Notes under the pieces: model-generated
Told to the model about the DNA's origin: nothing
The model's input: only the letters and a program-made list of their open reading frames with translations
Databases searched by the model: none
Part shown: positions 2,004 through 20,404 of the stretch, piece by piece
Layout of the letters: each line of letters begins with the position of its first letter
How positions within the stretch are numbered: the stretch's first letter is position 1
Position numbers and translations under genes: made by a program
Source: a virus
Strand: one strand, 5' to 3'
IMG/VR virus record: IMGVR_UViG_3300027985_001644
Span: 1-24,841 of that record
DNA length: 24,841 nt

Positions 2004-2228
2004 ATGAAAATCGAAGACGGTCGCAAGACCTTGGCCGTGCGGGATGACCTCAAGCGGCTAGGCATAAACGTCAGCAACACGACCCTTCTGCGCTGGGAAG
2101 CGCGCGGGCGCTTTCCGCGCCGCATCAGAATGGCCGGGACGAGCGTTGCTTGGTTCCTGTGCGAAATCGAGGACTGGCTGGTTGCACGCGCCGCAGAACG
2201 TGCCCGCGCGCATTACGCCGACTACTGA
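2004..2228 (+). CDS. AlpA-family excisionase/transcriptional regulator
   Basis: A 74-aa winged-helix protein of the MerR-like AlpA/phage-excisionase type. It contains the characteristic run of an AlpA DNA-binding unit: a recognition helix region NTTLLRWEARGRFPRRIRM followed by a beta-wing and the closing segment VAWFLCEIEDWLVAR. In P4-like elements such proteins activate the integrase gene or act as directionality factor for excision. A good ribosome site (GAAGGA) precedes the ATG. It lies between the integrase block and the replication gene, the usual place in satellites and islands, and only 23 bases before the prim-pol start, so the two are likely cotranscribed. Confidence 0.85.
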   Translation: MKIEDGRKTLAVRDDLKRLGINVSNTTLLRWEARGRFPRRIRMAGTSVAWFLCEIEDWLVARAAERARAHYADY

Positions 2229-2251
2229 TCACCCATAGAAGGAGAAACGGG

Positions 2252-4027
2252 ATGCCATCCGCATTTCGCTTCGAGGGTGACATGGCGTCTTCCTCGATCA
2301 CCAAAGCTGCGCTTGCATGGGTGCGGCAAGGTGCCAAGATCATTGCCCTGCATGGCATCGATGAGGCCGGGTCCTGCACCTGTGGCAAGAGCCATTGCCG
2401 CAGTCCGGGCAAGCATCCCATCGCCGACCTGTTCCCGAAAGGGCAGCACAGTGCCACGACCAGTGCTGCCACGATCCGGCGCGCCTTTACTAAATACCCG
2501 AAAGCAAACCTCGGCGTGATCCTGCCCCCGGGTATCGTCGCGCTGGACGTGGACGGGCCGGAAGGGCTTTCGACGTTCAAGGGCTTGGACCTTCCATCCA
2601 CCTTGTCCGTGCAAACAGGTCGGGGCACTCACCACTACTTTCGCGCTCCGCAGCAACTCCCCAAGAGGAAGACGAACCTCGAACATATCGACATCAAGGA
2701 TGACCAGTCCGGTTACATAGTTGTTCCGCCCAGCACACATCACAGCGGCAAACAGTATCGCTGGCGGAAGTCGAATGGGCCTATCGCAACCCTGCCGGTC
2801 AGTTTGTTGAAACGGCTGCGACGCCCTGCAACGGTAAAGGTGCAGTTCGGCGGCGAAGGGGTGTTCCGTGCGGGCGGGCGCAACAGCGAACTCACCAAGA
2901 TTGGCGGTTCGCTCAGGTTCCGTGGGCTTTCCGAAACCGCTATCGGCGCGGCATTGCAGGCGATCAACACTACGGCCTGCAACCCACCCCTAGACGCCGA
3001 AGAGGTCGACCGCATCGCCATCAGTATCGGCAGGTATGAACCCGCAAACGAAGCCGCCTTTGGCTGGCTCGATGATGTTGAGGAAACCGAACCCCAGTTC
3101 CTCGCCTTTCCCTACATCGTCAGGGGTGCGCTGACCGTCCTCGACGGCAACATGGGGCAAGGCAAGTCGACCTTCACCTGTGCCATCGCCGCAGCCGTGA
3201 CCACGGGCGAGCCACCGCCGTTCGTCAAGAATATCGAGAAAGGCCGCGTCCTATTCATGTCAGCGGAAGACGACGCCTCGCGCGTCCTGAAACCGCGCCT
3301 GATCAAAGCCGAGGCAGACACGTCAAAGGTGCGCTTTCAGCAGGAACCGTTTTCACTGGACGAAAGAGGTCTGACGATGCTGCGGCAGGAACTTGCCGCC
3401 AACACCCCGGCGCTGGTGGTCATCGACCCCATCATCGCTTTCATGAAAGACGGGGCAGACGGCAACAAGGCGACCGAGACCATGCACTTCATGGTGCAGA
3501 TCGACCAGCTTGCCAAAGAGTTCGACACGGCCATCCTGATCGTGCGGCACCTACGCAAAGCGCGCGCCGATCACGCGATGCACCAAGGGATTGGGTCAAT
3601 CTCGATTTCTGCCCGGGTGCGTTCCGGCCTGATCTTGGCCCCGCATCCTGACGAACCGAAAAGGTTGCGTGCGGTGGCCCACGCCAAAGCGAACTACTCC
3701 GAACTCGGCCCCACTATCGTCTTTGAACTGGAAAACACCGGCCCGCGGTCACACCCGAAGCTCCGGTGGCATCCGACCGATCCATCCTTGACCGCAGAAA
3801 TGCTGCTGGCCCCACCCGAACAAGAAAGGGGCCGACCGCCTCGGGAACGGGACACTGCGACGGTCTGGCTGGAAAGCGTGCTGCGCAAGGGGCCGACCAA
3901 GAAGGCAGTGCTTGATGCCTTGGCGGCGAAGGTCGGAGTCCGCAACAGCACTCTGCGGCGTGCTGGGGATGCCTTGAGAGTCGTCAAGTCAAAGGACGGC
4001 AAAGATTCGGTCTGGTCGCTCGAATGA
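2252..4027 (+). CDS. Bifunctional primase-polymerase / RepA-like helicase
   Basis: Replication protein of a mobile element. Residues ~15-190 form a bifunctional Prim-Pol domain, with a CxC...C zinc-knuckle-like cluster (Cys42, Cys44, Cys49), the catalytic ALDVDG (Asp99, Asp101) and the later QTGRGTHHYF motif. Residues ~205-260 resemble a primase C-terminal helical domain. Residues ~285-500 are a RecA/RepA-like ATPase with Walker A GNMGQGKS (Lys305) and Walker B LVVIDP (Asp392). The C-terminal ~60 residues look like a winged helix. I chose the ATG at 2252 because AAGGAG lies 10 bases upstream; an open frame extends back to 2150 but would overlap the alpA-like gene. Such proteins prime and unwind DNA for autonomous replication of P4-like satellites and islands. 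Length 591 aa is ordinary for this fusion. Confidence 0.9.
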   Translation: MPSAFRFEGDMASSSITKAALAWVRQGAKIIALHGIDEAGSCTCGKSHCRSPGKHPIADLFPKGQHSATTSAATIRRAFTKYPKANLGVILPPGIVALDVDGPEGLSTFKGLDLPSTLSVQTGRGTHHYFRAPQQLPKRKTNLEHIDIKDDQSGYIVVPPSTHHSGKQYRWRKSNGPIATLPVSLLKRLRRPATVKVQFGGEGVFRAGGRNSELTKIGGSLRFRGLSETAIGAALQAINTTACNPPLDAEEVDRIAISIGRYEPANEAAFGWLDDVEETEPQFLAFPYIVRGALTVLDGNMGQGKSTFTCAIAAAVTTGEPPPFVKNIEKGRVLFMSAEDDASRVLKPRLIKAEADTSKVRFQQEPFSLDERGLTMLRQELAANTPALVVIDPIIAFMKDGADGNKATETMHFMVQIDQLAKEFDTAILIVRHLRKARADHAMHQGIGSISISARVRSGLILAPHPDEPKRLRAVAHAKANYSELGPTIVFELENTGPRSHPKLRWHPTDPSLTAEMLLAPPEQERGRPPRERDTATVWLESVLRKGPTKKAVLDALAAKVGVRNSTLRRAGDALRVVKSKDGKDSVWSLE

Positions 4028-4778: not shown

Positions 4779-5009
4779 TCATTCTTGGACCCATCCCTTG
4801 CGATGGTAGTGGCGCAGCACGATGACGCGGTTGAACAGTGGGAAGCCGATCCACAGCCCGTTCGCACTGATCAGTGACAGGAGCGACCACAGGAACATCC
4901 CCCTGAACAGGTAGTACAGCGGCCCGAACAGCAAGCACCACAGGCGATGCCAGTTGCCAAGAACCGTTTTCGTTTGACCGTTGAAGGCCCATGTCGCGCG
5001 TATCGTCAT
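4779..5009 (-). CDS. Small membrane protein, DUF2628-like
   Basis: A 76-aa protein whose centre (GNWHRLWCLLFGPLYYLF and the following hydrophobic stretch ending WIGFPLFNR) forms one or two membrane helices, with a polar N-terminus and a basic C-terminus (RHYHRKGWVQE). The pattern of a GPLYYL... helix followed by a short second helix and a basic tail resembles DUF2628-type small inner-membrane proteins; the resemblance is from memory and moderate. I chose the ATG at 5009 because GAGG lies ~9 bases upstream; an ATG five codons earlier (5024) is also possible. It stands alone on the minus strand between the replication module and the nuclease gene. Function unknown. Confidence 0.55.
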   Translation of the reverse strand: MTIRATWAFNGQTKTVLGNWHRLWCLLFGPLYYLFRGMFLWSLLSLISANGLWIGFPLFNRVIVLRHYHRKGWVQE

Positions 5010-5093
5010 TGCCGTTTTCCTCATTGGCTGGCTTCGATGCCAGCGCAATAAGATCGGGGACCATCGCCCGTCAGGGTAATTCCTGTGCTGCCT

Positions 5094-5910: not shown

Positions 5911-5961
5911 TCCTGAATGCCGCCAGTGACTTCGGGCCTTCCGCAAGCCTAGGTCGATTAT

Positions 5962-6594: not shown

Positions 6595-7494
6595 TTATTG
6601 AGGGCGAGAAAAGCGACTGAAGTAGTCGACTGCGTCCTCCGCTTGTTCCTCTTCAATATCCGCCAGTGGCGCGCGCGCCTCCAACGTCAACAGCGAAAGA
6701 GATAGATCGTACCGTTCTGAGATCATTGAGTGATCTGTGACCGGCTCCCTCAGCCAAGTACCTCCATCGAGTCTCGTCGGTTCGATCAGTCCAACACTTC
6801 CGGCATTACGCGCCACCGGCGACATCAAGGGGATTTCGCGGGGCGGCAATCCTGCAACCTTGATAAACGCACCGGACTTGAACGCCGGTTCGCTGGATCT
6901 GGCCCAAAGAATGTAACCATCACGACTTACAACAAGGATTGCTCTTTTCTGGGTGTATGAAAGCCACCGGAGTGTTGCAGCTGTCAACGAGACTTCATAG
7001 CGCTCGGCACACGCACCAAGCATGTCGAAATCAGCACCGCAATTCGCGGGAATCTGCGCTCGGAAATCATCCAGCGGCATTAGCAGACCGGCGGCGAAGC
7101 GGTTAGCCTCGGCCTCGACACGATTATATTCGCTATCCCATCTCACCATGTCCTCCGGACGGCATTGAAAGCCGTTTGGGTACTTTTTTCGGTGAAGCAA
7201 GTAGTGGCCGAACTCGTGTGCGATTGTGAAATTCACCCGCCCTTTTACGCGAAGAGAATCGGAATAACCGATCCCCCACTCACCAGACCCATCCGGTTTT
7301 GGGATCAATGCGCCCTCAAAACCGTCAAATCCCCGTGCGCGCACGCGCGTGATGGGATCGTCTGGAAATACCTGTTGACTGTATTTCTGAGCCAAACTCG
7401 CCACGTCTACCGGAAAGCGAGCGGCCCCAAAGGCCGAAGTCAACAGGATTGAGAGGTCATTCGCCCACCGCTCCGGACCTTTGTCTTGCTTCAT
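6595..7494 (-). CDS. capP: CapP-like ImmA/IrrE (DUF955) metalloprotease
   Basis: Zinc metallopeptidase of the ImmA/IrrE family. The catalytic HEFGH is at residues 93-97 and the third ligand is in the helix VEAEANRFA (Glu129). The C-terminal ~130 residues form a separate regulatory domain after the peptidase. Its gene overlaps the upstream XRE repressor gene by 4 bases (ATGA). The pair is divergent from a CBASS operon, the arrangement described for CapH/CapP, in which the protease cleaves the CapH repressor after DNA damage and so induces CBASS. The symbol is assigned from context; the fold is certain. General ImmA proteins of mobile elements work similarly on their own repressors, so the alternative is a phage-type repressor/antirepressor pair next to CBASS by chance. 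Confidence 0.85.
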   Translation of the reverse strand: MKQDKGPERWANDLSILLTSAFGAARFPVDVASLAQKYSQQVFPDDPITRVRARGFDGFEGALIPKPDGSGEWGIGYSDSLRVKGRVNFTIAHEFGHYLLHRKKYPNGFQCRPEDMVRWDSEYNRVEAEANRFAAGLLMPLDDFRAQIPANCGADFDMLGACAERYEVSLTAATLRWLSYTQKRAILVVSRDGYILWARSSEPAFKSGAFIKVAGLPPREIPLMSPVARNAGSVGLIEPTRLDGGTWLREPVTDHSMISERYDLSLSLLTLEARAPLADIEEEQAEDAVDYFSRFSRPQ

Positions 7495-7814
7495 TCGTCA
7501 TCCCAGAGGTCAAGCATCTTACGCATCGTATCACGTTTGTCCGGTGCCAATTCGACGAATTTCCGAAAGAAAACCTTGTCTTCAGGAGATAAGTCGTCTG
7601 CGGTATTAATTGGCGTGCCGATAAGAACATCGACCGTCGTGTCCAAGGCAGCCGCGATCGCAGCCAATTTGTCCGCAGACGGCCTCGGGGGATTCTTGTT
7701 TTCGAGCTCCCAAATGTAACCCTTGCTGCATCCCGCCTTGGCCGCGAGCTGGTCGAGTGTGAGGCCGCTTCCTGTTCGTCGATCCCGAATCCTTTGGCCC
7801 ATTGGTGTGGTCAT
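7491..7814 (-). CDS. capH: CapH-like XRE repressor of the CBASS operon
   Basis: A 107-aa transcription factor. Residues ~5-65 are an XRE helix-turn-helix (GLTLDQLAAKAGCSKGYIWE, then NPPRPSADKL). Residues ~70-107 are an acidic linker and C-terminal helix (SPEDKVFFRKFVELAPDKR), a plausible oligomerisation and cleavage region. A strong GGAGGGCGG precedes the ATG at 7814. It is cotranscribed with the overlapping CapP-like protease. A minus-strand promoter can be read at 7862-7867 (TTGTCA) and 7839-7844 (TACTCT) with 17-base spacing. The -10 lies inside one copy of a 20-bp direct repeat found twice in this divergent promoter region, consistent with autorepression. Role as CBASS repressor follows from the published CapH/CapP arrangement and is inferred here. 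Confidence 0.82.
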   Translation of the reverse strand: MTTPMGQRIRDRRTGSGLTLDQLAAKAGCSKGYIWELENKNPPRPSADKLAAIAAALDTTVDVLIGTPINTADDLSPEDKVFFRKFVELAPDKRDTMRKMLDLWDDE

Positions 7815-7834
7815 GTCCGCCCTCCGTGTGTTTT

Positions 7835-7854
7835 GTTCAGAGTAGACATATTTT
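7835..7854. promoter_or_regulatory. CapH operator candidate, direct repeat 1
   Basis: GTTCAGAGTAGACATATTTT. It differs at only two positions from the repeat at 7893-7912 in the same orientation, 58 bp away start to start. It contains the -10 hexamer (TACTCT on the minus strand) of the predicted repressor-protease promoter. Confidence 0.6.
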
Positions 7855-7867
7855 TCTTCCTTGACAA
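7839..7867 (-). promoter_or_regulatory. Predicted promoter of the repressor-protease pair
   Basis: On the minus strand, -35 TTGTCA (7867-7862), a 17-base spacer and -10 TACTCT (7844-7839). The start codon of the XRE gene is 24 bases further on. Overlap with the direct repeat argues for autoregulation. Confidence 0.45.
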
Positions 7868-7892
7868 ACGGGATGGCAGGTCACACCTTGGC

Positions 7893-7912
7893 GTTCAGAG
7901 TAGCGATATTTT
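7893..7912. promoter_or_regulatory. CapH operator candidate, direct repeat 2
   Basis: GTTCAGAGTAGCGATATTTT, 18 of 20 positions identical to the repeat at 7835-7854. It is on the CBASS side of the divergent promoter region, ~100 bases before the CD-NTase start, where a repressor could block the defence operon. Confidence 0.6.
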
Positions 7913-8010
7913 GCGTGACACCTTCTCTTCCTGTCATCAACATATCGAGCAGCAACGATAGGCCCGCCCTACCAATAGGGCCAGCCAAGCGACCTAGAAA
8001 GGGGTCCACG

Positions 8011-9261
8011 ATGAACAAGCACTTGGGGACCCCGGCCGCTCCGTGGGACAGTATCTCGGAACAGATGTTGGCGGCTGTGGCCATCAAGATCGAGCTACCA
8101 CCGAGCATGCACGCACTTCTGGCAGAGCGGAAAGCGGCCATCGAGAAGCACCTTGAACGCGACGGAAGCCCGCTGAAAGGGAAGATCCGTCTCTTCTACC
8201 AGCAAGGCTCAGTTGCCATTGGCGCAACCATTCGAGCCAAGTTCCGCTTCGAAGGTTTCGACATCGACATCATTGTCGAACTGATCGCGCCGGGCCTGAC
8301 GCCTTGGCAGGCTCTTGAGTTGCTCTACGAGGCTATGCGGGGCGAGCGTGGCTCACGTTACTACGACATGACTGAGCGCCAGACACGGTGTGTGACGATC
8401 CACTATGCCGATGGGATGCACCTCGACCTGTCTCCCGCCGAACTGATCAGCGAAATCGACCCGCGCCGTAGCTACATCTTCCATTCCAAACCTGAAGATC
8501 AGCGCAACAAAGACCACAAGGTGTTAACCAACAGTTTCGGATTTGTCGAGGAGTACAACTCGACCTGCCCGGTCGATCTGTCGTTTCAGCAGGAGTACGC
8601 TCGGCGGGCACTCCAAGCCGATCAAGGCTTGGTCGTCATGCAGAAGGATGCAGACTCTTTGCCTGTGCCAGCCCACTCGACTGTCGTGGGAGGGAAATCA
8701 GCGGTCACCGTGGCGCTTCAACTGATCAAAAGGAACCGCAACATCCGGTGGGCAACCCGGGATGGGCGCATGCCCGCCTCTGTGATGCTGAGTTGTCTGA
8801 CGTTGGAGGTCGCAGAATCAGGGCGGACCATTGGTCAGAACCTCAAGATCATCGCGCAGCACATTCTCGACCGCCTGCTGTGGGCAAAAAGCGTGGGCGA
8901 GCTGATCCACGTAGAAAATCCGCGATGCCCCGGCGATGTGTTCACTGATCGCTGGCCTGAAAACCACTCCGCACAAGACAAGATGATCGCGGACATGAAG
9001 CTGTTCTTGGAACAACTCAGCGTGCTTCTCGATGATCGACGGACTTTGCGTGAACGTCGCGACACCTTGAAAGCCATGTTCGGCGAAGACATTGGCCAGC
9101 AAGTCGTGGACGACATGGAACGCGAGATTGGTGAGGCTATTCGCACTGGTCGTCATGGCTTCGGCGCGCTCGGCGGCCTTGCTATGAGCCCAACCATCGC
9201 ACGGGCCAAACCAGCGGTGAAGCCTTCGACATTCTATGGCACGCGGTTTTGGAAACGATGA
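8011..9261 (+). CDS. CBASS CD-NTase (cGAS/DncV-like nucleotidyltransferase)
   Basis: Synthesises a cyclic oligonucleotide alarm signal on phage infection. The nucleotidyltransferase core is visible: the QQGSVAIGATI turn (Gly66-Ser67), the metal-binding FDIDIIVEL (Asp84, Asp86) and the third carboxylate in MHLDL (Asp139). The rest, to residue 416, is the helical lobe of the CD-NTase fold. I chose the ATG at 8011 because GAAAGGGG lies just upstream; the frame is open back to 7861 but that segment contains the operator repeats. The stop codon overlaps the E2-like gene by 4 bases. The C-terminus ends in GTRFWKR rather than a small residue. The cyclic product cannot be predicted from sequence. Divergent CapH/CapP-type genes probably repress the operon until induction. 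Confidence 0.92.
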   Translation: MNKHLGTPAAPWDSISEQMLAAVAIKIELPPSMHALLAERKAAIEKHLERDGSPLKGKIRLFYQQGSVAIGATIRAKFRFEGFDIDIIVELIAPGLTPWQALELLYEAMRGERGSRYYDMTERQTRCVTIHYADGMHLDLSPAELISEIDPRRSYIFHSKPEDQRNKDHKVLTNSFGFVEEYNSTCPVDLSFQQEYARRALQADQGLVVMQKDADSLPVPAHSTVVGGKSAVTVALQLIKRNRNIRWATRDGRMPASVMLSCLTLEVAESGRTIGQNLKIIAQHILDRLLWAKSVGELIHVENPRCPGDVFTDRWPENHSAQDKMIADMKLFLEQLSVLLDDRRTLRERRDTLKAMFGEDIGQQVVDDMEREIGEAIRTGRHGFGALGGLAMSPTIARAKPAVKPSTFYGTRFWKR

Positions 9262-9734
9262 AATCCCTCCTAGCACAAGTGGACGCAATGCAGCGCGATT
9301 GGCCGCAACTCCAACCCACGAAGGGGTTCGGGCCGCAGTCCGTTGTCTGGTTTGGCGATATTAAGGGCATAGATCGAAAATTTCAGATCAGCATCGAGTA
9401 CGGCCTGCCCCTGACCGGGCGAACTGAACTATACCGGCGCATGCCCGTGGTTCGCGTCCTGAGGCCCTCGCTAGTCCCGAATTGGGACGCCGAAGAGGAG
9501 TCCCCACTCCCTCACGTTTACTTCGAGCTTCCAGACATCAGGTTGTCTCCGCTTTGTTTGTTCGACCCTAAGGCTCGTGAATGGGACCCATCCATGCTCA
9601 TCAGCCGAACGACCGTTGGCTGGACTGTGCGCTGGCTCGCCGCTTACGAGTTCTGGGAAATGACCGGGCGTTGGATCGGCGGCGGGCGACACGAGGAAAT
9701 TGGGACAGACAAGGGCGACAGCCATGCCGCGTGA
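9258..9734 (+). CDS. CBASS E2-like conjugating protein (type II-short)
   Basis: A 158-aa bacterial E2 (ubiquitin-conjugating-like) protein of the E2-only CBASS type. The family signature is present: a His at residue 86 (LPHVYFEL), then SPLCLFDP with the presumed catalytic Cys100, EWDPSMLIS, and the C-terminal YEFWEMTGRWIGGGRH. There is no E1 or JAB-type partner in the operon, unlike the long type II systems with a Cap2 E1-E2 fusion and Cap3. In related systems this protein forms covalent links with the CD-NTase and primes it for signalling. The ATG at 9258 overlaps the CD-NTase stop (ATGA); a TTG three codons earlier is also in frame. It overlaps the effector gene by 11 bases. Confidence 0.88.
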   Translation: MKSLLAQVDAMQRDWPQLQPTKGFGPQSVVWFGDIKGIDRKFQISIEYGLPLTGRTELYRRMPVVRVLRPSLVPNWDAEEESPLPHVYFELPDIRLSPLCLFDPKAREWDPSMLISRTTVGWTVRWLAAYEFWEMTGRWIGGGRHEEIGTDKGDSHAA

Positions 9735-10797
9735 CAGCGAATATGACCACACCGTTCCTCGACGCTCTGACGGAACGAGACAAACTCTCAGACCGGTTCA
9801 GCCGTGGCCTGCGGAGAAGCCGTTCAAGATACTTTCCATCGATGGCGGCGGCATCTTGGGCATTCTTCCCTGCATGGTGTTGGCTGAAGTCGAGAAACGG
9901 TTCCTTGGAGGTGAGCCAATCGGGCAGCACTTTGACATGATCGTGGGCACATCGACCGGGGGTATCATCGCGCTGGGTCTTGGGCAGGGGAAATCCGCAC
10001 AGGAAATCTCCAAACTCTACATTGAGCGTGGCCGGTTCATTTTTCCTGGAAATCGCCTTACGCGGTGGCTTCGCGGTTTGGCGGGCTGGGCATTCACCCC
10101 ATACAACCGGGCCAACCTCGAAAACGAGCTGCGTCGAGAGTTTGGTGATGGTCTCTTCGGCTCTTCATCTGCCGCAATCTGCATACCGTCCTTCGATGGC
10201 AGATATGGTGAGCCATATGTTTTCAAGACACCTCACCACCCTGATTACAAGAAAGACCAGTATGAGCGGCTTGTGGATGTCGGGCTTTCCACTGCGGCGG
10301 CGCCCACGTTCTTTGCTGCGGTGAAAAGAAATGGATACGTGTTCGCAGATGGTGGCATTTGGGCGAACAATCCCGCCATGATCGGTATTGTGGACGCACT
10401 GACCTGCTATGACATTGATCGCACCCAGATCAGGCTCCTGAGCCTCGGATGCGGTCAAGAAAGTTATCGAATGCGCTGGTGGCACCGCATCGGAGGGAAA
10501 TTCGTCTGGGCCAGCGCGTTTGTTACCTCTGCTATGAGGGCACAATCGCATAACGCGCTGGGTCAAGCTGGATTGTTGATCGGTCGCCCACATTTGCTTC
10601 GGCTAGATGCCCCTGAGGTCGTCAATAGGATCGGAATGGACAATGTCGACCGGGCTTTGGCCGAAATGCCCCCCGTCGCAAGGTCGCTTGTGGAAGCATC
10701 GGGGCAAAGGATTTCCCAGATATTTCTCCAAGATGCGCACCCGGAACCACCGCATGCGCAACACACTGAACCAAGTGACAGCGCGGTTTCAGGCTAA
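9724..10797 (+). CDS. capV: CBASS effector: patatin-like phospholipase CapV
   Basis: A 357-aa patatin-like phospholipase, the membrane-degrading effector triggered by the cyclic nucleotide. Visible motifs are the oxyanion loop DGGGILG (residues 40-46), the nucleophile elbow GTSTGG with Ser77, and the catalytic DGG at 209-211 (FADGGIWANNP). On activation such enzymes hydrolyse inner-membrane phospholipids and kill the infected cell. The ATG at 9724 follows AAGGGCGACAGCC; the frame is open upstream to 9700 but starts there would lie deeper inside the E2 gene. The last ~20 residues are a disordered Pro/Ser-rich tail. It is the last gene of the CD-NTase-E2-effector operon, and a hairpin follows 15 bases after the stop. 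Confidence 0.92.
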   Translation: MPRDSEYDHTVPRRSDGTRQTLRPVQPWPAEKPFKILSIDGGGILGILPCMVLAEVEKRFLGGEPIGQHFDMIVGTSTGGIIALGLGQGKSAQEISKLYIERGRFIFPGNRLTRWLRGLAGWAFTPYNRANLENELRREFGDGLFGSSSAAICIPSFDGRYGEPYVFKTPHHPDYKKDQYERLVDVGLSTAAAPTFFAAVKRNGYVFADGGIWANNPAMIGIVDALTCYDIDRTQIRLLSLGCGQESYRMRWWHRIGGKFVWASAFVTSAMRAQSHNALGQAGLLIGRPHLLRLDAPEVVNRIGMDNVDRALAEMPPVARSLVEASGQRISQIFLQDAHPEPPHAQHTEPSDSAVSG

Positions 10798-10839: not shown

Positions 10840-11170
10840 ACTGAGGCTTCGTCGCGTGGCAAGCTTTGCGCAGAGTATGGAGGGGTAGTAACTTCCGGAC
10901 AAAATTAGGACCCCGACAAAAAGCACACAATGCATTGAGAACACGGAAAAAAACAGGGTGCGACGCAAAAAGCGTTTTCGGACAGGCATGTAAGTAGTGC
11001 TGAAATAAGGCCCCACAGGGCGTCACCGAGGCAACACGTTCCGATCATGCGGTGAACATTCGACCATCATCGCGTATCACCAAGTAAACACTGAATTAAA
11101 AGGAAGATCATCGGACGCGGATGTTATCGGAGAAAAGCCCATTCGGGGCGCGGGAGCATAACGACGATCA
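10840..11170. other. Gene-free stretch between CBASS and the prophage
   Basis: No supported gene. Base composition is visibly more AT-rich than the flanking genes, with A-runs near 10949 and 11095. A minus-strand frame at 10789-11016 encodes a hydrophobic stretch but lacks a ribosome site. The junction between the island and the Mu-like prophage must lie here or in the repeat cluster that follows; the exact end cannot be set without the right end. Confidence 0.35.
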
Positions 11171-11293
11171 TGACAAGGTCTGACCGGTGGGTCAGACCTT
11201 CATAGTCTCGGTCAGACCTTGTCAGGGAATTGAATAGACAAGATTTTTTGCATGAAAGATTGCTGAATCTCGATGTCCAAGGTCTGACCGAGA
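11171..11293. repeat. Four copies of AAGGTCTGACC: candidate prophage left-end transposase sites
   Basis: The 11-mer AAGGTCTGACC occurs at 11175-11185 (+), 11190-11200 (-), 11210-11220 (-) and 11279-11289 (+). Copies 1 and 3 extend to a 16-bp perfect inverted pair (TGACAAGGTCTGACCG and its complement, 11171-11186/11209-11224). Copies 3 and 4 share 15 bp (AAGGTCTGACCGAGA). Multiple sites in mixed orientation close to the left end is how MuA-binding sites are arranged in Mu-type phages. Function as attL is inference. They could alternatively be operators, or a terminator structure for the methyltransferase gene. Confidence 0.5.
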
Positions 11294-11344: not shown

Positions 11345-12151
11345 CTAGTTTCGGATGAGCAACTCCGCCCTCGCGCCGCCGGCATCGTTGCGCCCGGCCG
11401 CAATCGTGTACGTCGTGCGCACCTCCGTCAGATCGAACGAGGCAAAGATCGCACGGATCTCCGGAACGTCATTCAAGGACATGATGAAGTGCCCTTTGAT
11501 TCCGCCGAGGACAGTCGCCAGCCGCGCAAAATCAGTGCGCTCGAACATCTGCTTGCCGTAATCATCCTCGCAGCCCCAATAGGGCGGATCGAGGTAGAAG
11601 AGCGTGTTAGGGCCGTCATAGCGCGGGATGAAATCCGCCCAATCCAGGCACTCGATCACCACGCCGGCAAGCCGCGTGTGCAGATCCTCGAGCATCGGCT
11701 CGAGCGTGGTCAGGTTGAAGCGACCCGGGCGATCCCTCGAAACGCCAAAGTTCCGCCCGCTCACCTTGCCGCCGAAGGCCGTACGTTGCAGGTAGAGAAA
11801 CCGCGCCGCTCGCTCGAGGTCGGTGAGCGTGTCGGGATTGGTCTCGACCAGGCGATTGAACTCGGCGCGCGTGGTGAGCTGAAAGCGCAGAACCTCGAGA
11901 AACTGCGGGTAGTGGCGTTGCAGGATGCGGAACAGGTTCGCGATATCGCGACCGCGGTCATTGATGACCTCGGCTCTGGGCCGGGTAGAGCGGCGAAGGA
12001 AGATCCCACCCATCCCGACGAATGCCTCCGCATATAGCTGGCATGGGGTCGCGTCGATGATCGCGCAGATCCGCTTCGCAAGGTTACGCTTGCCGCCCAT
12101 CCATGGGGCGGCAGGCGCAGTCGGAGCTACCGGCTCGAGTTCATGGTGCAT
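11345..12151 (-). CDS. DNA adenine methyltransferase, D12 class (Dam-like)
   Basis: N6-adenine methyltransferase of the MethyltransfD12 family. The N-terminal APWMGGKRNLAKR is the family's cofactor/DNA motif, AEAFVGMGGIFLR (41-53) is the AdoMet-binding motif, and the catalytic DPPY is at 188-191 (FYLDPPYWG). At 268 aa the protein is of normal length. AGGA precedes the ATG at 12151 by 9 bases. It is transcribed leftward toward the prophage end, outside the c repressor, so it probably belongs to the phage as an accessory gene that protects phage DNA from host restriction. The target sequence cannot be read from the protein; GATC is only the family default. Confidence 0.9.
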   Translation of the reverse strand: MHHELEPVAPTAPAAPWMGGKRNLAKRICAIIDATPCQLYAEAFVGMGGIFLRRSTRPRAEVINDRGRDIANLFRILQRHYPQFLEVLRFQLTTRAEFNRLVETNPDTLTDLERAARFLYLQRTAFGGKVSGRNFGVSRDRPGRFNLTTLEPMLEDLHTRLAGVVIECLDWADFIPRYDGPNTLFYLDPPYWGCEDDYGKQMFERTDFARLATVLGGIKGHFIMSLNDVPEIRAIFASFDLTEVRTTYTIAAGRNDAGGARAELLIRN

Positions 12152-13440: not shown

Positions 13441-13481
13441 ATACCGACTTTAATCTTGATAATGCCGATTAAAATCGGTAT
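13441..13481. promoter_or_regulatory. c/ner operator: 15-bp inverted repeat
   Basis: ATACCGACTTTAATC (13441-13455) is complementary at 14 of 15 positions to GATTAAAATCGGTAT (13467-13481), with 11 bases between. The second arm contains its own near-palindrome, CCGATT-AA-AATCGG. It sits 10 bases from the repressor start and 100 bases before ner, where the c and Ner proteins of Mu-type phages compete for the divergent early and repressor promoters. Confidence 0.65.
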
Positions 13482-13580: not shown

Positions 13581-13874
13581 ATGGGAGCACCCTGGACCAA
13601 GCCCAAGATCAAGTGCGCCCTTGAGGAACGCGGCATGACCCTCACGGGCCTTGCCGAACTCAAGGGCATCTATCCGAGCCAGATGCGGAACGTCTGGAAA
13701 CGTCCCTGCCGCAACGCCGAGGCGGCGATCGCCGAGTTTCTCGACGAGCCGGTGGCGGAGCTCTTCCCGGATCGTTACCCCGTGAGGCGGTCTCGTATCC
13801 TTTCTGCCGAGAACGAGGCCCTGATCGCAAGGGAAAAAGCGCGGCGTGCCGCTGACAACGAGGCGGCGGCATGA
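13581..13874 (+). CDS. ner: Ner/Nlp-family early regulator
   Basis: A 97-aa helix-turn-helix protein of the Mu Ner / Nlp (SfsB) family. The signature is clear: APWTKPKIKCALEERGMTL, then LAELKGIYPSQMRNVWKRP and the closing FLDEPVAELFPDRY. In Mu, Ner shuts down early and repressor transcription. ACAGGAG lies ~10 bases before the ATG at 13581. It is the first rightward gene, facing the repressor across the operator, exactly as in Mu. The C-terminal ~25 residues are a charged helix (RILSAENEALIAREKARRA) beyond the usual Ner length of ~75 aa. Confidence 0.9.
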   Translation: MGAPWTKPKIKCALEERGMTLTGLAELKGIYPSQMRNVWKRPCRNAEAAIAEFLDEPVAELFPDRYPVRRSRILSAENEALIAREKARRAADNEAAA

Positions 13875-16844: not shown

Positions 16845-17308
16845 TGTCCCGCTTCCGCGACCCTTTGACGAAGGATCTGTTTGCCTGGCGGCCACCCAAG
16901 GTGGGCGTGGGCTACAGCGAGGACGTCATCGGGCGCGGCCGTCTGGACAGCAAGGTCGCGCGGCTGATCAGCCAGGCACTGCGGGACGCACGTGAGAACG
17001 ATGTCAGCCGGGCCGAGGCAGCGCGCCGAATGAGCGCGTTCCTTGCCCGGCCGATCAGCGAAGCGATGCTCAACAAGTGGTCGTCGGAGGGATCCGAGGA
17101 GCACCGGATCCCGCTCGACGCCTTCATCGCCCTCGTGCACGCGACGGATGCGAAGGAGCTGCTCGGCTTCGTTCCGGGCGAGTTCGGCCTGACGGTGATC
17201 GAGACCGAATATGCGGAGCTGATCGAAGAGCGCCTGCTCGACGACCACATCGAGGAATTGCAGGCACGCAAGCAAGCGTTGGCCGCTCGCAGGAAGATCC
17301 GCAGATGA
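16844..17308 (+). CDS. Hypothetical DNA-binding-like protein before transposase
   Basis: A 154-aa protein between parB-like and transposase genes, overlapping both (TGATG and ATGA). The central part looks like an XRE-like or HTH region (DVSRAEAARRMSAFLARPIS, then LNKWSSEGSEEHRIPL, with FIALVHATDAKELLGF as the C-terminal helices of such domains). The C-terminal ~35 residues form a charged helix ending in RRKIRR. I infer a small DNA-binding protein of the transposition operon; the family is commonly found just before MuA in related phages. Confidence 0.75.
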   Translation: MSRFRDPLTKDLFAWRPPKVGVGYSEDVIGRGRLDSKVARLISQALRDARENDVSRAEAARRMSAFLARPISEAMLNKWSSEGSEEHRIPLDAFIALVHATDAKELLGFVPGEFGLTVIETEYAELIEERLLDDHIEELQARKQALAARRKIRR

Positions 17309-19593
17309 ACGACCAGTCCCTGCCCCTTCAGGAATTCTTCACGGCGCGTGAGCTGGCCGAGCTGTCCGCGCGGTTGGGATATGACGGGCTTCCCGGGACC
17401 GAGAGCGGTGTGATCCGTCGCGCCAAGCGCGAGGGCTGGAACGATCAGCCCGGATCGCTGTGCAGAAAGCGCGCAGGGGTAGCCGGCGGCGGTGGTCTTG
17501 AATACCACATATCGCTGCTTCCAGCCCTGCAGGGAATGCTTCTGAAGAGCCGCATGCTGCAGACCGGCGTCCGCAATCGAAATGCGATCGCTGTGAAGTC
17601 CGAAGCCGTCCCTGCCGTGCCTGCTGCCTTGGCGCGCCGCGCGCGGACCACGGCTGAAGCGCGCTCGGAGATCATGGTCGCGATCATCGGCTATGCGGCC
17701 CGCGCCGGCAAGAAGCCCTCCCAGGCAATGGCTGATTTTCTTGCGGCCCAGGAGGGTCATCGTCACTGGATTGCGGCTTGCGCGGCGCGCGATCGGGGGG
17801 ATTTTCTCGATGCTCCGAGCATGCGTGCGCTTCAGATGGGATCGCCACTGACCCGTCCTTTCGACCCCAAGGCCCCCTATGGGTTCGGCGTGTCGGAAGA
17901 GGTCTTGCGGCTTGCAAACAATCGACCCCGCGGCGGTGATTTCATCCAAGTCGGTCGGTCCGCCCTTTACGAATGGATGAAGGCGCATCGAGAACGGGGA
18001 TTTTCCGCGCTCGCGCCCGCACGGACAAAGGCGCCCGAGCCCATTCCGGATGACTTCTGGCGCTTCATGCGTTTTTTCGCACAACCAGCAAAGCCTGCGA
18101 TCTCGCGCAGCCACAAGAAATACCTGGACAGCACCCCTTCCGGTGTCATCGCCCTGACGATCGATCAGGTCAAATACACCCTGCGCGAGAAGCTCAACCA
18201 TATCGAGCGCAACAAGGGTCGTGAGGGGCCGCTGACCTTGCGCTCGCGCTTGGCCTATGTCTCGCGCGACACGTCGGACCTGCTGCCCAGCACGATCTAT
18301 GTGGCCGACGGTCATACTTTCGATGCCGAGGTTGCAGACCCGAATTCCTACGGAGCAATGCGGCCGGAAATCACCTCGATCATGGATGTCGCGACGCGTC
18401 GCCTCGTTGGTTGGGCGATCTCGCGCAAGGAGAATGTCATCGCGGTGACCGAGGCCTTGCGCAATGCCTGCTTGGAGAACGGGATTTGCGCCGTGTTCTA
18501 CGTGGATAACGGTCCAGGCTACAAGAACAAGACCTATGACGATGAGGGCAATGGCCTCATGGCCCGTCTTGGTATCGAGAAGTATCATGCTCGGGCTTAC
18601 GGGTCCCAGGCAAAGGGTAACATCGAGCGATCGCACCAGACCATCTGGATCACCCTGGCGAAGGAGTTCCCCACCTATCTGGGTGATGCGATGGACAAGG
18701 AGGCGCGTCAAAAGGCCTTCCGCCAGAGCCGCAAGGAGATTGCAGAGGTCGGAGCTTCGACCCTTCTGATGCCCTGGGAGACCTTCCGCGAAGCCATCGC
18801 GCGCCGCGCCGAGGAATATAATAGCGAGCCCCACAGTTCCCTACCGCAGATCATCGATCCGGTGACGGGGCGGCGCCGCTTCATGACGCCGAACGAGGCC
18901 TGGGCGCAGCATGTCCGAGACGGATTCGAGCCTGTCCTTGTCGATCCGGAGATGATGGACGATCTCTTCCGGCCCTACGTCGAGCGCACCGTGTCTCGCT
19001 GCCTCGTCCAGTGGAACACGAACGAGTATTTCAGCCTCGATCTCAACCCTTACCACGAGAAGCGGGTGTTCGTGGGCTATGATGATGCCCAGGCAGACCG
19101 GGTCTGGGTGCGTGAGATCGATCGCGAGACCGGTGAGCCCGGGAGACTGATCACCGTAGCCGTCTATGGCGGGAACAAGGTCAGCTACATGCCGCGGACC
19201 CGTATCGCCGCCGCTGAAGAGAAGCGGCAAAAGGGCGCCCTCAAGCGGATCGAGGCGAAAGTGCGGGACGTCGAGGCCGAACGGGTCGCGCCGATGCTGG
19301 AGCACCAACCTACCCAGACGACCGCGGAGATTTTCGAGGTTCACGCGGACCCGGCGCCCGTCATGGAGCCATCAGATCCCGTCAAGAATATCTCCCCCCA
19401 GGCGCCGCGGCGGATCAGCTTTGCTTCGGACGAAGAGCTCGCAGCTTGGGCGCTGCAGCACCCTGACCAGCTCAGTGCGAACCAGATCAGGGTGCTGCGC
19501 AACTGCATGGGCAATTCGACGGCCCGTGACCTTTTCAGAATGTCAGGCATCGACGTGGAGGCGCTTCGAACCCTCCTCCGCGCCGTTGCCTGA
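17305..19593 (+). CDS. Mu-type DDE transposase (MuA homologue)
   Basis: A 762-aa transposase catalysing strand cleavage and transfer of the prophage ends during replicative transposition. The N-terminal ~250 residues are DNA-binding domains, beginning with a MuA-like winged helix (FTARELAEL..., GLPGTESGVIRRAKREGW). The RNase H-like core carries Asp335 (VADGH), Asp401 (YVDNGPG) and Glu441 (KGNIERSHQ). A beta-barrel domain follows (~res 550-650), then a basic helix-rich domain (EEKRQKGALKRIEAKVRD) and a C-terminal tail that likely contacts the MuB ATPase. The ATG at 17305 overlaps the previous gene; the frame is open upstream but has no other suitable start. Transposase and ATPase genes are 37 bases apart. 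Confidence 0.95.
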   Translation: MNDQSLPLQEFFTARELAELSARLGYDGLPGTESGVIRRAKREGWNDQPGSLCRKRAGVAGGGGLEYHISLLPALQGMLLKSRMLQTGVRNRNAIAVKSEAVPAVPAALARRARTTAEARSEIMVAIIGYAARAGKKPSQAMADFLAAQEGHRHWIAACAARDRGDFLDAPSMRALQMGSPLTRPFDPKAPYGFGVSEEVLRLANNRPRGGDFIQVGRSALYEWMKAHRERGFSALAPARTKAPEPIPDDFWRFMRFFAQPAKPAISRSHKKYLDSTPSGVIALTIDQVKYTLREKLNHIERNKGREGPLTLRSRLAYVSRDTSDLLPSTIYVADGHTFDAEVADPNSYGAMRPEITSIMDVATRRLVGWAISRKENVIAVTEALRNACLENGICAVFYVDNGPGYKNKTYDDEGNGLMARLGIEKYHARAYGSQAKGNIERSHQTIWITLAKEFPTYLGDAMDKEARQKAFRQSRKEIAEVGASTLLMPWETFREAIARRAEEYNSEPHSSLPQIIDPVTGRRRFMTPNEAWAQHVRDGFEPVLVDPEMMDDLFRPYVERTVSRCLVQWNTNEYFSLDLNPYHEKRVFVGYDDAQADRVWVREIDRETGEPGRLITVAVYGGNKVSYMPRTRIAAAEEKRQKGALKRIEAKVRDVEAERVAPMLEHQPTQTTAEIFEVHADPAPVMEPSDPVKNISPQAPRRISFASDEELAAWALQHPDQLSANQIRVLRNCMGNSTARDLFRMSGIDVEALRTLLRAVA

Positions 19594-19630: not shown

Positions 19631-20404
19631 ATGAGACCGACCTTTGTCGAGACGAGCAACGTCAGGGAGTTCTATGGCGCCCTGAAGAAGGTCAATGAAC
19701 GCGGCGCACAGGAGGCCTGCCTCGTCGTCGTGGATGGCAAGCCGGGCCTGGGCAAAACCACTACGATCAATCGCTGGACCACCCAGACGGGCAGCATCTA
19801 TCTGCGTGCACAGAAGGGGTGGGATTACAGCTGGTTCATCCAGGAGCTCTTGGCGGAACTCTCCGTCGACCCGAAAAGCATCCGTGGCAAGCGGGACCGT
19901 TTCGCCCGGGCGCTTCAGGAACTGCAGGACCGTGCCGAGAGGGCGATGCTGCTTGATAAGACCTTCGGGCTGGTGATTGACGAGTGCGATCTCGTCTCCT
20001 CGCGCGGCGAGATCATGGAAGCGATCCGCGGCATTTCGGATCTCAAGTTTCTGCCCACAATCCTCGTGGGCATGGGCACGCTGCGCGATAACCTGCGCCG
20101 CTTTCCCCAGATTGAGAGTCGTGCACCGAATAAGGTCAGCTTCCTGCCAGCGTCGATCGAGGATGCGCGCGCGCTGATCGCTGGCCGTTGCGAAGTGCCG
20201 GTCGCCGATGATCTCGTCCAGTATGTCTGGAAGGCCTCGCGCGGCTTCAATCGTGAGATCCTCGACGCGATCGCTCACATCGAACGCTTCGGACTGCGAA
20301 TCAACATCGATCAGACCGGGCTCACCATTGCTGATATGGCCGGGCAGCCGATCATGACCGACCGTACCACCGGCAAGGACATCTTCGTCACGGGGGCGAT
20401 GTGA
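19631..20404 (+). CDS. MuB-like AAA+ ATPase (transposition target selector)
   Basis: A 257-aa ATPase that binds target DNA and activates MuA. The Walker A is VDGKPGLGKTT (Lys42) and the Walker B is LVIDECD (Asp117, Glu118). The N-terminal TFVETSNVREFYGAL resembles other transposition AAA+ proteins. GAGGAG precedes the ATG. It is shorter than Mu B (312 aa) and lacks an obvious N-terminal HTH appendage, as in B3/RcapMu-type phages. Its stop overlaps the next ATG. Confidence 0.92.
   Translation: MRPTFVETSNVREFYGALKKVNERGAQEACLVVVDGKPGLGKTTTINRWTTQTGSIYLRAQKGWDYSWFIQELLAELSVDPKSIRGKRDRFARALQELQDRAERAMLLDKTFGLVIDECDLVSSRGEIMEAIRGISDLKFLPTILVGMGTLRDNLRRFPQIESRAPNKVSFLPASIEDARALIAGRCEVPVADDLVQYVWKASRGFNREILDAIAHIERFGLRINIDQTGLTIADMAGQPIMTDRTTGKDIFVTGAM

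Follow-up and report, generated by a model that had tools for sequence, protein, structure and literature searches.

The transposition enhancer of bacteriophage Mu doubles as an operator for the phage repressor. During Mu transposition, the Ialpha domain of the transposase binds the enhancer and aids transpososome assembly, and the Ibeta and gamma domains bind the phage ends (PMC3362531). In the literature searched, an enhancer was placed in Ab30, a phage similar to D3112, by analogy only (PMC5977238). A study of transposable prophages from 2021 described the enhancer-binding domain as one that "so far appears specific to Mu" (PMC8705779). No enhancer is mentioned in the RcWaterboi paper (PMC8601537). 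The RcapMu record annotates the terminal att repeats only, and not the four-site element described here.

The window, an IMG/VR record of 24841 bases, contains the left part of a Mu-like prophage beside an island; the right end of this prophage lies outside the record. The prophage is of the RcapMu type. It encodes MuA-like and MuB-like proteins, a repressor, Ner, a ParB-like protein and gp14 in the RcapMu order, and it shares its left-end gene order with both RcapMu (NC_016165), a Rhodobacter phage, and RcWaterboi (MW677528). Its transposase is about 50% identical to theirs.

A four-site cluster in the left part of the prophage

Four exact copies of AAGGTCTGACC, starting at 11175, 11190, 11210 and 11279 in the order + - - +, are present at the positions given in the original prediction. 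The 24.8 kb record contains no further exact copy; about 0.01 copies of an 11-mer are expected there by chance. When up to two mismatches are allowed, 15 matches are found versus 5.2 expected, and none of 100 shuffled sequences reaches 15. Identities extended to 15-16 bp had also been claimed; this holds for copies 1 and 3, which share TGACAAGGTCTGACCG. The cluster is indeed located to the left of the last leftward phage gene, which encodes a DNA methyltransferase. The features of this region and of the transposition genes are as follows.

11175-11185, + strand: putative enhancer site 1, AAGGTCTGACC
11190-11200, - strand: putative enhancer site 2, AAGGTCTGACC
11210-11220, - strand: putative enhancer site 3, AAGGTCTGACC
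11221-11278, no strand: spacer between sites 3 and 4, 58 bp, A+T 62% versus 46% in the flanks
11279-11289, + strand: putative enhancer site 4, AAGGTCTGACC
11345-12151, - strand: D12-class DNA adenine methyltransferase, last gene of the leftward operon (Pfam PF02086, 2.4e-23); also in the related prophage L111
12682-13431, - strand: S24-type phage repressor (Pfam, PHROG 4)
13581-13874, + strand: Ner-like repressor (PHROG 769; listed ORF start 13545)
17305-19593, + strand: MuA-like transposase, 762 aa (Pfam Mu-transpos_C and HTH_Tnp_Mu_1; listed ORF start 17077)
17305-17568, + strand: N-terminal winged-helix domain of the transposase, residues 1-88, counterpart of MuA Ialpha (phmmer and Foldseek, both 1TNS)
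17401-17433, + strand: recognition helix, residues 33-43, ESGVIRRAKRE (AlphaFold helix; covariation)
19631-20404, + strand: MuB-like transposition protein (PHROG 296)

The N-terminal domain of the transposase matches the Pfam family HTH_Tnp_Mu_1. Its best solved relatives in a phmmer search are 1TNS, the enhancer-binding domain of the Mu transposase (E 2.9e-6), and 1G4D, the DNA-binding domain of the Mu repressor. The AlphaFold model has a mean pLDDT of 71, rising to about 82-89 over residues 11-50, and contains a helix at residues 33-43. Foldseek ranked 1TNS first (probability 1.00, E 1.1e-3) and 1QPM second (0.99).

We propose that the cluster is very likely the transposition enhancer of this RcapMu-type prophage, that is, the counterpart of the Mu internal activation sequence, with its sites bound by the N-terminal domain of the phage's own transposase. 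The sequence comparisons described below argue strongly for binding of the cluster by this domain. The enhancer function, and the three-part complex that it implies, would follow by analogy with Mu. The original prediction had assigned the cluster to the region of a Mu-like prophage's left end, with the transposase as its binder; the location is correct, and the transposase very probably does bind there.

Geometry of the element in other transposable phages

Loci were fetched by transposase similarity and scanned for the arrangement of sites irrespective of their letters. Dozens of phages have the + - - + arrangement; their best scores range from 26 to 33, where 33 is the highest possible, versus a maximum of 25 in shuffled sequences; a few top hits, such as L108 and L178, were judged to be chance and left out. 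The commonest starts are 0/15/35/104, the spacing varies by one to two bases, and each phage has one element. The letters of the sites differ between related phages and the geometry stays. In a good number of phages, including RcapMu and D3112, one of the four sites is degenerate, usually site 3, and some phages have only three recognisable sites. No fitting element was found in several distant phages. A separate pattern, TGACAAGGTCTGACC, gave 11 single-copy matches in viral contigs. These were judged to be chance because none has a second motif copy nearby.

In the RcapMu group, the element mostly starts about 265-350 bp from the TGTAGGGG terminus. RcapMu and RcWaterboi have it about 290-300 bp from their left terminus, as in the window, but with other site letters, a correspondingly different recognition helix and a degenerate site 3. 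In the D3112 group, the two + sites are also 104 bp apart, with a - site at 33-35. There, however, the element is not by the terminus but 5' of the repressor gene, close to the position proposed by analogy for the Ab30 enhancer (PMC5977238). The Pseudovibrio/Paracoccus phages L171, L173, L071 and L073 also have the element on the 5' side of the repressor gene. This location, shared with D3112, is the region in which the Mu enhancer is found.

The element resembles the Mu internal activation sequence in two respects. Its probable binder is a homologous N-terminal winged-helix domain, and it is internal to the left end and separate from the end sites of the other transposase domains. It differs in having four + - - + sites at 0/15/35/104, a geometry that was searched for in Mu and is absent there. 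Moreover, the element of the RcapMu group is about 300 bp from the terminus instead of between c and ner; in the window it lies left of the leftward operon and does not overlap repressor operators between c and ner. In 46 of 52 phages, the DNA separating sites 3 and 4 has a higher A+T content than the flanks, as would be expected of bendable DNA. Another difference from Mu is that no IHF consensus was found in the 52 spacers, a weak test since only 0.32 matches were expected.

In the Sinirhodobacter ferrireducens prophage (L034), a remnant of the methyltransferase 3' end (4984-5040) adjoins the element. This shows that the methyltransferase is optional and that the element stays without the gene.

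Recognition-helix residues and site letters

Residues 33, 34, 35 and 37 of the recognition helix track the letters of the sites across phages. At position 6, Asp or Glu33 goes with C, Lys or Arg33 with G and other residues with T (50 of 51 phages); at position 7, Arg37 goes with G, Ile or Leu37 with T, and Gln37 with C or G depending on residue 33 (all 42 judged); at position 10, a polar or basic residue 35, or the Ser34 plus Ile37 type, goes with C or T (49 of 51); none of these counts is blind, since the rules were drawn up by eye and the site registers of held-out phages were set by hand. For the same reason the tree counts are not blind either: on a tree built from the rest of the transposase, helix and site change on the same branch 10, 16 and 11 times for positions 6, 7 and 10, versus shuffled means of 2.3, 6.0 and 2.3 (maxima 7, 13 and 7).

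The blind part of the comparison consists of six held-out phages, all of which fit the rules: L310 (ESGVIR, AACTCTGACC-type sites), L044 (KSGVIR, GAACTGTGACC), L064 (KRRVQ, AAGTGGGACG), L104 (KRNMN, AACTGGGATG), L263 (ESAVIR, AACTCTGAC) and L314 (ERGVR, GGTCGGCA). Many loci of the prediction run stop short of the left end and were therefore outside judgement; sampling of genomes by family added few new phages. L198, a relative of D3112, breaks the rule for Asp33, with A instead of C at position 6. In one Pannonibacter sp. SL95 genome, the prophages L056 and L058 have identical transposases but their site letters differ, and the rules hold only for L058. Both are near contig ends, and an assembly error or a recent recombination may account for this mismatch.

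Plain mutual information over the transposase is confounded by relatedness; it was dropped in favour of distance-corrected, distant-pair and tree-count measures. After correction for overall distance, the top column among 631 is residue 33 for position 6 and residue 35 for position 10. The same two residues again come first of 616 columns, for positions 6 and 10 respectively, when distant pairs are compared. The best control columns, taken from gp14, Ner, MuB and the repressor, are weaker at these two positions. No single helix column is best for position 7, where the rule needs residue 37 together with residue 33. Only position-specific results were used because, in sums over several positions, some catalytic columns outrank the helix through the outgroups.

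Natural exchanges of the domain provide a second line of comparison. The transposases of RcapMu and RcWaterboi are 95% identical, and 14 of their 36 substitutions are inside the Ialpha stretch; from RcapMu to RcWaterboi, the sites change from AAGGTCGGCA to GAGGTCCGAA and the helix from AERGAR to TERGVQ. In the D3112 group, transposases are 98-100% identical over the 500 residues that follow Ialpha, and Ialpha itself is swapped. Each version has its own site word and the 104-bp spacing is kept: AAAGTCGGAA at 831 and 935 with DRGVR, AA(A/T)CGGATG at 871 and 976 with ARNVK, AACTTGAAA at 672 and 776 with VQGIN, and GAATACGAAA at 697 and 801 with DRAIQ. Domain and sites thus change together. Covariation, controls and natural swaps all strongly favour binding of the sites by the Ialpha-type domain.

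A modular exchange was seen in the D3112-type prophages L193-L207, where about the first 45 residues of the transposase are exchanged among at least five versions and the remainder is 98-100% identical. It resembles phase or immunity diversification.

In the mechanism that we propose, each of the four 10-11 bp sites would be gripped by the N-terminal winged-helix domain of the transposase. At the termini, CTTCCGGAC-type sites would be bound by other domains, the counterparts of Ibeta and gamma. Left end, right end and element would thereby be held together, which would promote correct assembly of the transpososome.

Covariation tells the binder and not the reason for binding. The same domain might bind the sites for another purpose, such as autoregulation of the leftward operon or avoidance of self-insertion, and the position of the element 5' of the repressor in D3112-type and Pseudovibrio/Paracoccus phages makes an effect on transcription possible. 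We regard such a purpose as unlikely here. The window cluster is downstream of the leftward operon, and a search of the window for promoters and terminators around it found neither. In addition, a four-site geometry that stays fixed over large divergence is easier to reconcile with an assembly scaffold than with an autoregulatory operator.

Sites for the phage repressor, or for another regulator such as Ner, gp14 or the ParB-like protein, could also give repeated motifs. The element does overlap the repressor 5' region in D3112-type and some alphaproteobacterial phages, and the enhancer of Mu has such a double role. Nevertheless, transposase residues 33 and 35 follow the variation of the sites more closely than the columns of gp14, Ner, MuB and the repressor do. 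The Ner proteins of RcapMu and RcWaterboi are 99% identical, yet their sites differ, and no ParB-like protein was found in L063, in L171 or in the stretch of D3112 that was searched. Furthermore, the RcapMu group has a separate palindrome between c and ner (GCACTTTACTAAAGTGC in RcWaterboi). In the window this palindrome is CCGATTAAAATCGG at 13466, between the repressor and Ner, which indicates that operator and enhancer are apart. An operator function of the cluster therefore appears very improbable.

Returning to the enhancer, we are inclined to think that a four-site element of fixed geometry is a general and ancient component of transposable phages of the RcapMu and D3112 types rather than a peculiarity of Mu. 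It would be re-coded when the recognition helix and the sites are exchanged or mutated together, with the result that a phage would assemble on no enhancer other than its own, and in the RcapMu type it would have been freed from the double use as repressor operator. The Ialpha-type domain and a matching four-site element span alphaproteobacterial and Pseudomonas transposable phages. The readable residue-to-base code makes the geometry of the transpososome enhancer, which is poorly understood, testable with natural variants, and offers a way of locating enhancers in other phages. It also suggests that the transposition machineries of related phages are kept insulated from one another within a shared host.

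Termini of the prophage and of its relatives

The original prediction took the motifs as transposase end sites marking a terminus just left of 11175. Such sites, repeated in mixed orientation near a phage end and probably bound by the transposase, would at first sight suit this reading. Homology with RcapMu attL, however, places the left terminus at about 10876, 299 bp further left and with a motif of its own.

10876-10900, + strand: prophage left terminus, TATGGAGGGGTAGTAACTTCCGGAC (alignment with RcapMu attL1 and L034)
10892-10900, + strand: end-type transposase site CTTCCGGAC, L1-like (motif present at the two ends of RcapMu and at those of the S. ferrireducens prophage)
10975-10983, + strand: second end-type site TTTTCGGAC, L2-like (from the sequence; CTTTCGGAC at the same place in L034)

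The annotated left end of RcapMu is TGTAGGGGGGGACTACCTTCCGGAC, and TATGGAGGGGTAGTAACTTCCGGAC is its counterpart in the window. The outermost base, 10876, was assigned by alignment with TGTGGAGGGG, the left end of L034; a 5-bp target duplication defines the terminus of that prophage. In the window prophage the outermost two bases are TA, against TG in its relatives; because of this TA, the terminus would alternatively be at 10878 if TG is needed. Should the prophage really end with the TA at 10876-10878, its transposition may be impaired.

The 5-bp target duplication proposed as a check was found in relatives with TG...CA termini; for the window itself, the right end is outside the record. The S. 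ferrireducens prophage (L034/G002), with a transposase 84% identical to that of the window, begins with TGTGGAGGGG, ends with CCGCCACA and is flanked by TGCGG. The L111/G397 prophage (transposase 79% identical) has TTGTC on both sides. L034 has the end motif of the window, CTTCCGGAC, and a different cluster motif, AAGGTCGGAA. Conversely, L111 has the cluster motif of the window, AAGGTCTGACC, and a different end motif, CTTTGGCAG. The end and cluster motifs thus vary independently, and the ends are recognised through a motif other than that of the cluster, namely CTTCCGGAC or its variants.

The expected recurrence of the motif at the right end also failed in relatives. No right-end cluster of their own motif is present in the complete phages RcapMu, RcWaterboi and RR1-B, nor in the two prophages bounded by TGCGG and TTGTC, where the cluster is about 310 bp from the left end. 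With up to one mismatch in 10, RcWaterboi has its motif only at 238-408 of 38.3 kb, and RR1-B at 338-443 plus one stray copy at 5922. Exact copies in RcapMu occur only at 288, 303 and 394, and one-mismatch copies are scattered far from both ends. The element therefore lies within the phage and separate from the terminal sites, and the reading of the cluster as end sites is hardly credible. Least tenable is the view that the inverted pair 11175-11200, whose 11-bp arms enclose a 4-nt loop and which lies downstream of a gene, forms a hairpin terminator for the leftward methyltransferase operon, since the pair comes without a T run or terminator-like site and this view leaves sites 3 and 4, the 104-bp spacing and the tracking of transposase residues unexplained.

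A second Mu-like left end was observed 43 bp past the right terminus of the S. ferrireducens prophage, in G001 (IMGVR_UViG_2845942736_000007, about 7245-7670; G002:C58 141387-141811). The copies at 7245-7382 of G001 belong to this remnant and are outside the prophage. This second left end is followed by a four-site-like cluster with overlapping composite sites, in which AGGTCTGACCAAGGTCGGAA occurs twice, 116 bp apart, and also by head genes in opposite orientation. The remnant is rearranged and has sites of two specificities.

The island beside the window prophage contains a CBASS defence system (6595-10797).

6595-7494: CapP-like peptidase, beside a small HTH protein
7491-7814: small HTH protein, possibly CapH
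7861-9261: CD-NTase (CBASS)
9249-9734: E2-type protein (CBASS)
9700-10797: patatin-like phospholipase effector (CBASS)

Further left are a tyrosine integrase with an arm-binding domain (93-1325) and a Prim-Pol/AAA primase (2150-4027). Together they suggest that the island is integrative or satellite-like and that the prophage was inserted into it or next to it. The L111 prophage directly adjoins a putative CRISPR-associated cas3, a long helicase-type ORF (L111 1-2411).
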